The position numbers and the translations under genes are program-made. The notes beneath the pieces are model-generated. The model did no database searches. It saw only the letters and a list, made by a program, of their open reading frames with translations, and was not told where the DNA came from. Below are positions 39,187 through 41,597 of a DNA stretch of 64,000 bases, piece after piece (within the stretch, counting starts at the first letter, position 1; every line of letters begins with the position of its first letter). The DNA comes from Thermococcus paralvinellae (GTDB lineage Archaea; Methanobacteriota_B; Thermococci; Thermococcales; Thermococcaceae). The stretch spans positions 1,216,681-1,280,680 of the forward strand of contig NZ_CP006965.1 in assembly GCF_000517445.1 (NCBI RefSeq). The letters run 5' to 3'.

Positions 39187-40158
39187 ATGGAAATCAACTT
39201 AAAAGAACAAAAAGTCGTTAAGGATATAAAGCTGAGAAAAGGTATGACTGCAGGTGAAATAACCAGACAGCTCTTTGAGAGCGGAGGTTTCGTTGCAAAG
39301 AAGTTTGCATTGGCAGTTGACATCCTGGAAAAGATGATAAAAGACAAGGATACATTCAAGTTTCTAAGCTTTCCAGCATGCATAATGGCAACAGGAACGA
39401 GGGGAATAATTGTAGATTTGATTAAAAATAAGCTCTTCGATGCTGTAATTACCACTTGCGGAACTCTAGACCATGACCTAGCAAGACTCTGGAAGCCATA
39501 CTATCATGGGAGCTTTCTGATGGATGATAAGGAACTCCACAAGCAAGGGATAAATAGGCTTGGAAATGTCTTAGTGCCCAACGACAGCTACTGGATTGTT
39601 GAGGAAAAGCTACAGGGAATATTTCAGGATATCTATGATTCGGGCAAAAGAAGATTAGCAACGTATGAGCTTGTGTGGGAAATTGGAAAACGCTTGGAGA
39701 ATGAAGAAGGCAAAGAGAACAGCTTCATCTATTGGGCATATAAAAACGAAATTCCAGTTTTCATTCCTGGAATTACCGATGGGGCAGTTGGCTATCAACT
39801 ATGGCTTTTCATTCAGGATAAAGAAGACTTTATCATTGATGTTTTCAAAGATGAAACAAAATTGGATGAAATAATGGCATCACTGGCTTCAAACAACAGA
39901 AAGAGCGGCGCTTTGATGATTGGTGGGGGAATTTCAAAACACCACACAATATGGTGGAATCAGTTTTGGAAGGAAGGCCTCGACTATGCTGTTTACATAA
40001 CGACAGCAGTTGAATGGGACGGCTCATTGAGCGGTGCAAGGATGAGAGAAGCAGTCTCATGGGGCAAAGTAAGAGAAAATGCAAGATACGTTACCGTTGA
40101 GGGTGATGCAACCGTTTTGCTGCCGTTCATGATTGCTTCCCTGCTGGAGAGACTTTGA
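39187..40158 (+). CDS. dys: Deoxyhypusine synthase
   Basis: 323 residues. CIMATGTRGIIVDLIKNKLFDAVITTCGTLDHDLARL (NAD-binding and substrate loops), IPVFIPGITDGAVGYQLW, SGALMIGGGISKHHTIWWNQF (with the catalytic Lys before HH) and DYAVYITTAVEWDGSLSGARMREAVSWGKV are all typical. It transfers the aminobutyl group of spermidine to a lysine of aIF5A. The ATG at 39187 follows GAGGTGATGC; CTTTTTAAG near 39131-39139 is the TATA box. Confidence 0.94.
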   Translation: MEINLKEQKVVKDIKLRKGMTAGEITRQLFESGGFVAKKFALAVDILEKMIKDKDTFKFLSFPACIMATGTRGIIVDLIKNKLFDAVITTCGTLDHDLARLWKPYYHGSFLMDDKELHKQGINRLGNVLVPNDSYWIVEEKLQGIFQDIYDSGKRRLATYELVWEIGKRLENEEGKENSFIYWAYKNEIPVFIPGITDGAVGYQLWLFIQDKEDFIIDVFKDETKLDEIMASLASNNRKSGALMIGGGISKHHTIWWNQFWKEGLDYAVYITTAVEWDGSLSGARMREAVSWGKVRENARYVTVEGDATVLLPFMIASLLERL

Positions 40159-40194
40159 TTTTTTGATTCCATTTTTATGCCTCAATATCAAAAC

Positions 40195-40203
40195 ATTATT
40201 AAA
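40195..40203 (+). promoter_or_regulatory. TATA box of the GC-rich ncRNA
   Basis: CATTATTAAAC is centred about 26 bases before the abrupt onset of GC-rich sequence at 40226. It lies in the gap between two convergent genes, so no protein gene would use it. Confidence 0.6.
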
Positions 40204-40223
40204 CTTCAAAAGCCAATTCTCTA

Positions 40224-40290
40224 ATGCCCGGGGAGCACCGCCGAAGGCGGAGTCTATGAACTTGGGCGGGTTATTGCCCCCATTCATTCT
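40224..40290 (+). ncRNA. GC-rich structured non-coding RNA candidate
   Basis: In an AT-rich convergent intergenic region about 55 bases have very high GC, as do the tRNAs. CCGCC-GAA-GGCGG at 40238-40250 is a perfect hairpin. GCCC at 40226-40229 can pair with GGGC at 40264-40267, which can alternatively pair with GCCC at 40276-40279; GGGG at 40230-40233 can pair with CCCC at 40277-40281. A TATA box sits at the correct distance upstream. No ORF. High-GC RNAs of this sort (the Hgc and Ssc RNAs) were found in Pyrococcus and Methanocaldococcus; this may be one of them, but I cannot assign it by name. Confidence 0.65.
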
Positions 40291-40349: not shown

Positions 40350-41597
40350 TCACATACCAAGCTCTTCTTTAATGGTCTCGGCAAGCTTCTGGATTCCAAT
40401 CTTAATCTTCTCCTCGTCAACATATGTAAAGTTCAAGCGCATTGTGTTTTTGACATCTCTGTATGCAAAGAAGGCCTCTCCCGGCACGTAAGCAACGCCT
40501 TTCTTTACGGCTTTTTCAAGCATCAGCTTTGTGTCAATGCTCTCTGGAACAGTTGCCCAGACGAACATACCACCTTCTGGCTTTGTCCATTTAACACCTT
40601 CAGGCATATAGTCCTCGAGGGCATCAAGCATGGCATCTCTCTTTGGCTTGTAGAACTCGATTATCTTTGGAATATGCTTCTCTAAGAGTCCTTTTTCAAG
40701 GAATCTCCATGCAACAACTTGTCCAAAGGTGTTTGTACACAGGTCTACAGCCTGCTTTGCAATCTCAAGCTTTCTGATGAAGTGAGGCTCACCTGCAATC
40801 CATCCTAACCTGAATCCCGGAGCAAGTATCTTTGAGAAAGTTCCAAAGTAAAAGACTCTTCCTTCAGTATCGAACTTCTTTATTGGTGGAACTGGCTTTC
40901 CGGAATAGCGAAGCTCTCCATATGGGTCATCTTCAACAATGAGAAAGTCATATTCATTTGCAAGCTCCACAAGGTACTTCCTCCTTTCTTCGCTCATTGT
41001 AACACCTGCTGGGTTCTGGAAAGTTGGGACTGTATAAACGAACTTAACTTTCTTACCCTCCGCTTTAAGCTCTTTGAGCTTCTCCTCGAGGAGATCAACT
41101 CTCATTCCCTCATCGTCAAGTGGAATCTGAATGAACTTCGGATCATAGTACTTAAAGGCATTTAGCGCTGCCAGATAAGTTGGAGCCTCAACTACTATCA
41201 AATCCCCAGGATTAATAAAGGTCCTCCCCATAAGATCCAGAGCTTGTTGTGAGCCTGATACAATCATAATGTCAACTTTTGAAATCGGAATTCCATACCT
41301 GTCCCTTAACCACTCTGCAAGCTTGAGTCTTAGTGGTGTGAATCCTTTCGTTGTTCCGTATTGTAATGCCTTATCAGCATGCTCTCTAACTACTTCTTGG
41401 ACTATCTCTTCGATCTGTTCAACTGGAAATGTTGCTGGATTTGGCAATCCTCCCGCCATTGAGATTACATCAGATGCTTCAACGAGCTTTAAAAGCTCTC
41501 TAATTTCAGATGCTTTCATCTGCAAAGCTTTATCTGAGAAATAACTTTCATAATTCAGGGTTTTGGATTCTAATTTCTTTTGAAGTGCCTCCTCCAT
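40350..41597 (-). CDS. PLP aminotransferase, 2-aminoadipate/aromatic (LysN/KAT-like) type
   Basis: 415 residues. An N-terminal arm (1-50) leads to VISMAGGLPNPATFPVE, LQYGTTKGFTPLRLKLAEWL, IMIVSGSQQALDLMGRTFINPGDLIVVEAPTYLAAL, FVYTVPTFQNPAGVTM, FLIVEDDPYGELRY and FGTFSKILAPGFRLGWIAG with the PLP Lys. These are features of the LysN, kynurenine and Pyrococcus aromatic aminotransferase group. It would convert aromatic amino acids to arylpyruvates for IorAB, or act in lysine synthesis. The ATG at 41597 was chosen because GGAGGTT is eight bases upstream. A TATA-like box is near 41614-41624 on the minus strand. Confidence 0.87.
   Translation of the reverse strand: MEEALQKKLESKTLNYESYFSDKALQMKASEIRELLKLVEASDVISMAGGLPNPATFPVEQIEEIVQEVVREHADKALQYGTTKGFTPLRLKLAEWLRDRYGIPISKVDIMIVSGSQQALDLMGRTFINPGDLIVVEAPTYLAALNAFKYYDPKFIQIPLDDEGMRVDLLEEKLKELKAEGKKVKFVYTVPTFQNPAGVTMSEERRKYLVELANEYDFLIVEDDPYGELRYSGKPVPPIKKFDTEGRVFYFGTFSKILAPGFRLGWIAGEPHFIRKLEIAKQAVDLCTNTFGQVVAWRFLEKGLLEKHIPKIIEFYKPKRDAMLDALEDYMPEGVKWTKPEGGMFVWATVPESIDTKLMLEKAVKKGVAYVPGEAFFAYRDVKNTMRLNFTYVDEEKIKIGIQKLAETIKEELGM

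Follow-up and report, generated by a model that had tools for sequence, protein, structure and literature searches.

A predicted orthologue of Pyrococcus abyssi sRk11 as a probable H/ACA-like K-turn RNA whose tail is complementary to helix 69 of 23S rRNA

The small RNA sRk11 of Pyrococcus abyssi was described by Phok et al. in 2011 as a transcript of about 50 nt that was detected on Northern blots, has a TATA box, and has its primer-extension 5′ end at position 197484 (PMC3124441, Table 1). It is conserved in all Thermococcales, is equally abundant in all growth phases, and is distinct from SscA, which is sRk33; no function, target or family was proposed for it (PMC3124441). The unplaced H/ACA-like candidates of P. 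abyssi include PabO1 and PabO78, the latter of the '9/14' type (PMC4652768), one of which may be sRk11. The only P. abyssi pseudouridines listed without a guide are 2585 and 2603 (PMC4652768, PMC6138745), and the U1915-equivalent in helix 69 (H69) of 23S rRNA, P. abyssi position 2016, was assigned to the canonical guide Pab40.3 (PMC4652768). In two of two genomes (L038 3132-3233, L039 1259-1361) the gene of another H/ACA RNA, Pab19, directly precedes that of the 16S rRNA.

The window, the whole 64-kb stretch of DNA that was analysed, contains an RNA gene core at positions 40226-40281 of the (+) strand, with the sequence GCCCGGGGAGCACCGCCGAAGGCGGAGTCTATGAACTTGGGCGGGTTATTGCCCCC. Its GC content is 67.9%, compared with 40.9% for the entire window, and 56-nt stretches reaching 68% GC occur at four spots in the 64 kb, namely the core locus and three tRNA genes, so that the GC peak exceeds what chance would give. 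The GC island on which a sequence-only reading had based the prediction of a stable RNA was thus confirmed, and so was the position it had given for GGGC (40264-40267). CCGCC lies at 40238-40242, GGCGG at 40246-40250 and the two GCCC segments at 40226-40229 and 40276-40279. The locus lies, as that reading had it, between convergent genes: a deoxyhypusine synthase-like ORF (+) ends at 40158 and an aminotransferase-like ORF (-) begins at 40350 (names from translations). As to the statement that there is no ORF, short mechanical ORFs overlap the locus. They are the only ones, however, and the copies found in relatives differ by 1-2 nt indels (alignment of 36 loci), which argues against a coding role. 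Upstream, a predicted promoter at 40189-40203 (+) consists of an A-rich BRE-like stretch and the TATA-like sequence TTATTAAA (40196-40203), which ends 22 nt before 40226, at the distance anticipated for a TATA box. A TATA-like motif was present between -36 and -22 in 27 of the 36 loci versus 6 of 36 in a control stretch, the A/T share at -28 to -23 was 83-100% in the 36 loci, and the flanks diverge among relatives except for this element at -28. A TTT follows within 14 nt downstream of the core in 22 of 36 loci. The conserved core with diverged flanks, the covariance match described below and the 5′ end published for P. abyssi all support the core as an RNA gene, with a predicted 5′ end at 40226. 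The gene encodes a stable RNA of about 50-56 nt.

In a genome made of a 1,765,118-bp contig (G012), which we take to be that of P. abyssi GE5, the core starts with minus-strand position 197484. The 5′ end position and the strand are identical to those of sRk11, and there is no material difference between the two RNAs. From its location, its sequence and the 5′ end determined in P. abyssi, the window RNA would almost certainly be the orthologue of sRk11. The RNA gene is real and was previously detected, so that as a transcript discovery it is ordinary; the prediction that the locus has a promoter of its own and yields a stable RNA, here taken as non-coding, is supported by the conserved single-copy core, the TATA element and the published sRk11 (PMC3124441).

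The core was found by blastn in 36 Thermococcaceae genomes, and the same search gave no match in other families of the class. A covariance model built from Thermococcales sequences only (R1) found the RNA in 94 of 96 Thermococcaceae genomes, nearly always as a single copy; the two genomes without a match are 69% and 53% complete. A second covariance model (R2) matched the window core with 80.5 bits, its sole match in the window. The neighbouring genes and their orientation vary between genera and the core stays constant, indicating an independent transcription unit. The location between two gene ends, together with an aminotransferase gene near the locus in several genera, would suit a regulator of the neighbours or a 3′-UTR or terminator element of the convergent genes. 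This explanation is very improbable, because the neighbours change around an unchanged core and because the gene has its own promoter and a 5′ end mapped in P. abyssi (PMC3124441). Several deviating copies were observed. In the Thermococcus genome G024 (L130 1501-1562) a diverged copy lacks the GA assigned to the presumed K-turn and has kept AUGA and the start of the tail; perhaps it is a decaying gene. In four Thermococcus genomes (G093, G100, G102 and G130; L136, L137, L138 and L159) the CCCCC at the end of the tail is replaced by CCGTCCCGCCGACTCCTT..., and this altered 3′ end, common to the four, follows immediately on the conserved GGGUUAUUACC; the change counts against the guide role proposed below. 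The draft genome G005 (contig 143, L037) has a second, partial copy that is interrupted by Ns and is probably an assembly or contamination artefact. Weak second model matches were seen in G036, G094, G081, G008 and G138, with no Rfam match at gathering level in those tested. The match in G138, a small archaeal genome (L129 969-1029, 21.3 bits), has a similar GCCCG..GAGCAUCGCCGAAGGCGA hairpin and a different tail.

The fold energy of the core is unexceptional (z -0.8 to -1.4), and the structural evidence was therefore taken from conservation and compensatory changes. The main stem is formed by GCCCGGG (40226-40232) and CUUGGGC (40261-40267), both on the (+) strand and both supported by RNAalifold and pair counts, with 99.6% of cells paired and with GU, GC, AU and CG exchanges. 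Inside it, GA (40233-40234) faces AUGA (40256-40259), both invariant in the alignment of 36 loci, and the apical hairpin CCGCC-GAA-GGCGG (40238-40250) is the CCGCC/GGCGG hairpin of the sequence-only reading; its central pair is exchanged in a compensatory manner among G-C, U-A and C-G across relatives. GA facing AUGA between two helices looks like a K-turn, with AUGA as its presumed second strand, and could be a putative L7Ae site; the arrangement is cleaner in Methanopyrus than in Thermococcales. The Thermococcales stem has seven standard and two G.A layers plus a bulged A, and that of Methanopyrus has 10 layers (hand count). In the joint alignment with the relatives described below 98.9% of cells pair, a count biased toward the proposed structure, to which that alignment was fitted. 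Double changes occur in it at three pairs (one being G-C/C-G/U-A of the apical stem), and the G-C/U-A exchange is already present in the Thermococcales-only alignment. The covariation score of the joint alignment was above those of all 500 shuffles and was lost when the partner strand was slid. Compensatory changes are thus present in relatives. The sequence-only reading had also proposed that GGGC could pair with either GCCC segment. Both pairings are possible on paper, but conservation favours GCCC at 40226-40229 as the partner in the main stem. In most relatives the second segment (40276-40279) reads ACCC, for which either GGGU or H69 of 23S rRNA is a possible partner.

A search of the locus against Rfam gave nothing at gathering score. 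HgcC, HgcE, HgcF, HgcG and SscA, the families that had been put forward as candidates, gave no covariance match there even at E 10, which removes them. With E up to 10, two of the three best matches, weak and below threshold, were PyrR205 and PyrR204, both H/ACA-like RNAs of Pyrobaculum. The window RNA scored 12.7 bits against PyrR205 (RF02803), whose gathering score is 35.6, and is not a member of that family as defined. In the opposite direction, R1 scored 17.5 bits (E 0.004 in 24 kb) at the PyrR205 locus of a Thermoproteales MAG and recovered most of the Thermoproteaceae PyrR205 copies tried, with 24.7 bits at best; PyrR205 was the best genome-wide match of R1 in three Thermoproteaceae genomes. 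R1 also had matches in three genomes of Methanopyrus, with per-genome E values of 2e-5 to 5e-8; one of the three (G163) is presumably M. kandleri AV19. R2 found five Methanopyrus genomes and one copy in another family, in the genome G158, which from its 23S rRNA and sRNA looks like a member of the Thermoproteota; the Rfam PyrR205 model scored 24.7 bits at this copy. Among 396 genomes the only other matches at E≤0.01 were a PyrR205 copy in G256, confirmed as such by Rfam, and the partial copy in G005. These results indicate that the window RNA is probably an H/ACA-like K-turn RNA related to PyrR205.

The core ends in a tail, GGGUUAUUGCCCCC (40268-40281, +), which from its complementarity and the agreement between lineages is presumed to be an antisense or guide element for H69, with a GGGU/GCCC hairpin as its alternative structure. 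All 14 nt pair with H69 when CUA is bulged; apart from these three bases, GGGGGUAA[CUA]UAACCC, tail and H69 are reverse complements of each other. Of the five genomes tested, four had H69 as the strongest LSU partner of the 14-nt tail, with Methanopyrus as the exception; with longer tail segments it was no longer the best in the window's genome. In Methanopyrus (L141 about 1247) the LSU segment most complementary to the tail was GGCGGGGUAACCC, about 250 nt before H69. The complementarity is inflated because the tail and H69 are both hairpins, and the bulged-duplex score alone was indecisive (1 of 40 shuffles equalled 12.5), hence the comparison between lineages was relied on. H69 was picked from the Thermococcales data, which makes the other lineages fair tests. 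In Thermoproteaceae, H69 and the tail GGGUUACCCCGGCC form a 10-nt duplex that lies exactly in the H/ACA register in front of U1917 (E. coli numbering). In G158, where H69 reads GGCCGGGAGUAACUC-U, the tail GGGUCACUCCCGGCC pairs at 14 of 15 positions and places a U opposite the new A: where Thermoproteaceae have GGGGG in H69 and CCCC in the tail, G158 reads GGGAG and CUCCC, respectively, a G-to-A change matched by a C-to-U change, and none of 3000 shuffles paired as well.

The same data bear on the explanation that the molecule is a K-turn sRNA with a different target (an mRNA, a tRNA or another rRNA site) and that the H69 match results from shared GGG/CCC hairpins. The tail can close on itself through GGGU/ACCC in all aligned sequences, other sites in the LSU or in tRNAs are within about 1-3 kcal/mol or show GU-rich matches of 13 nt, and Methanopyrus has a better site outside H69. 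Nonetheless, each tail fits the H69 of its own lineage far better than shuffles do: with H69 fixed, 0-4 of 3000 shuffled tails were as good, and 0-39 of 3000 when GGG and CCC were kept. Considering also the compensatory change in G158, an action on another target is unlikely. The complementarity is in the sequences themselves, and we consider it somewhat probable that H69 is paired by the RNA in the cell as its target. Two other kinds of target were examined and rejected. In tRNAs no uridine in register went beyond 4.5 points, and the longest match, to tRNA-Phe, was 13 nt and GU-rich; at the orphan P. abyssi site U2585 the tail energy was only -7.1, with no sensible guide pairing.

With H69 as the target, we propose an RNA made of a stem, which contains an internal loop of the K-turn type and carries a short apical hairpin, and of an unpaired 3′ tail complementary to H69; the fold is supported by the compensatory changes. 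L7Ae would bind the K-turn, and Cbf5-Nop10-Gar1 would come together on the stem in the manner of the H/ACA-like RNAs of Pyrobaculum that have no lower stem. The tail would open H69 and present a loop uridine for pseudouridylation, most likely the U1917-equivalent (about U2018 in P. abyssi), which is the best site by register in Thermoproteota. This explanation as a whole, an sRk11 orthologue that would be an H/ACA-like guide without lower stem acting on H69, is evenly balanced between being right and wrong; pseudouridylation as the outcome is plausible, falling just short of an even prospect.

For the guide features, Thermococcales 23S positions were matched to the P. abyssi literature with an offset of 26. 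By the H/ACA 3′-guide rule the best match was that of GGGUUAU to AUAACCC, which is followed by a U in H69. By H/ACA register U1917 ranked first among the uridines, alone or tied, in Thermoproteaceae, G158, P. abyssi and Methanopyrus; in the window's genome it was not the top one. The register is less distinct in Thermococcales: the U1917-equivalent is in register with mismatches, the U1923-equivalent fits the strict rule with seven clean pairs, and the U1915-equivalent sits in the bulge of the tail-H69 duplex. An ANA box 14-15 nt after the stem is absent in most Thermococcales of the 36-locus alignment, where the place reads UUU, AUU, GCA or GCU, among others; 14% of the Pyrobaculum motifs are also without ANA or NCA (PMC4652768). 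No pseudouridine at the U1917-equivalent is mentioned in the literature covered. These features raise the possibility of a chaperone or assembly checkpoint, in which the tail would hold both strands of H69 open until L7Ae and ribosomal proteins arrive, with no modification. The Thermococcales tail pairs with both H69 strands and not in a standard guide pocket, there is no ANA box, and the stem of nine layers is one short of the productive 10 and hence a non-productive fold by published rules (PMC4652768); in addition, since 2585 and 2603 are the only orphans listed, no orphan H69 pseudouridine calls for sRk11 in P. abyssi (PMC4652768, PMC6138745). PyrR205, a close relative, however, has retained both an ANA box, with AUA at 14 nt from the stem, and a U placed exactly in register, and a role limited to holding H69 open seems rather unlikely, although it is a serious rival.

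H69 adjoins the decoding centre of the ribosome, and pseudouridines in its loop occur across the domains of life. More tentatively than for the single RNA, we suggest that an old family of one-sided guides without lower stem might exist in Thermococcales, Methanopyrus and Thermoproteota, which would base-pair with H69 and modify or remodel it, co-evolving with the rRNA hairpin, and would in Thermococcales pair with both hairpin strands at once. If so, a function and a family would be at hand for an RNA that was described in 2011 and is present in almost all Thermococcaceae genomes, and H/ACA-like guides, thought to be typical of Pyrobaculum, would exist in Euryarchaeota too. The link to PyrR205 and Methanopyrus and the H69 target are new as far as could be read, any published PyrR205 target being outside the literature covered. 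One testable target, H69, is indicated. T. kodakarensis, to which we assign one of the genomes carrying the gene, is genetically modifiable. Strains with deletions of cbf5, nop10 and gar1 exist in this species (PMC6138745).

Among the known systems, HgcC, HgcE, HgcF, HgcG and SscA resemble the window RNA as GC-rich RNA genes in AT-rich hyperthermophiles, with no Rfam match between them and the locus. A C/D box sRNA does not fit: the conserved core has no CUGA, and there is no Rfam match to a C/D family. The canonical archaeal H/ACA sRNAs (Pab19, Pab40, Pab91 and others) have a stem of the K-turn type, as presumed here, and a K-turn-based sRNP assembly would be shared; Pab40.3, one of them, targets the neighbouring H69 uridine 2016 (PMC4652768). 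In contrast to them, the window RNA has no lower stem, 5′ guide or conserved ANA box. Its 5′ flank is unconserved and its 5′ end is at the stem, which leaves no canonical lower stem with a bipartite pocket; there is no 5′ guide because transcription begins at the stem. The closest system is PyrR205 (Pyrobaculum sR205). It differs by a tail that is 3 nt longer between GGG and CCCC and by the AUA box, which the Thermococcales RNAs do not have. Like the window RNA, PyrR205 has its own promoter, a stem that starts with GCC(C) and is not preceded by a lower stem, a K-turn with AUGA (presumed in the window RNA), an apical C-rich hairpin, GGGUUA right after the stem, and a C-run tail complementary to H69.
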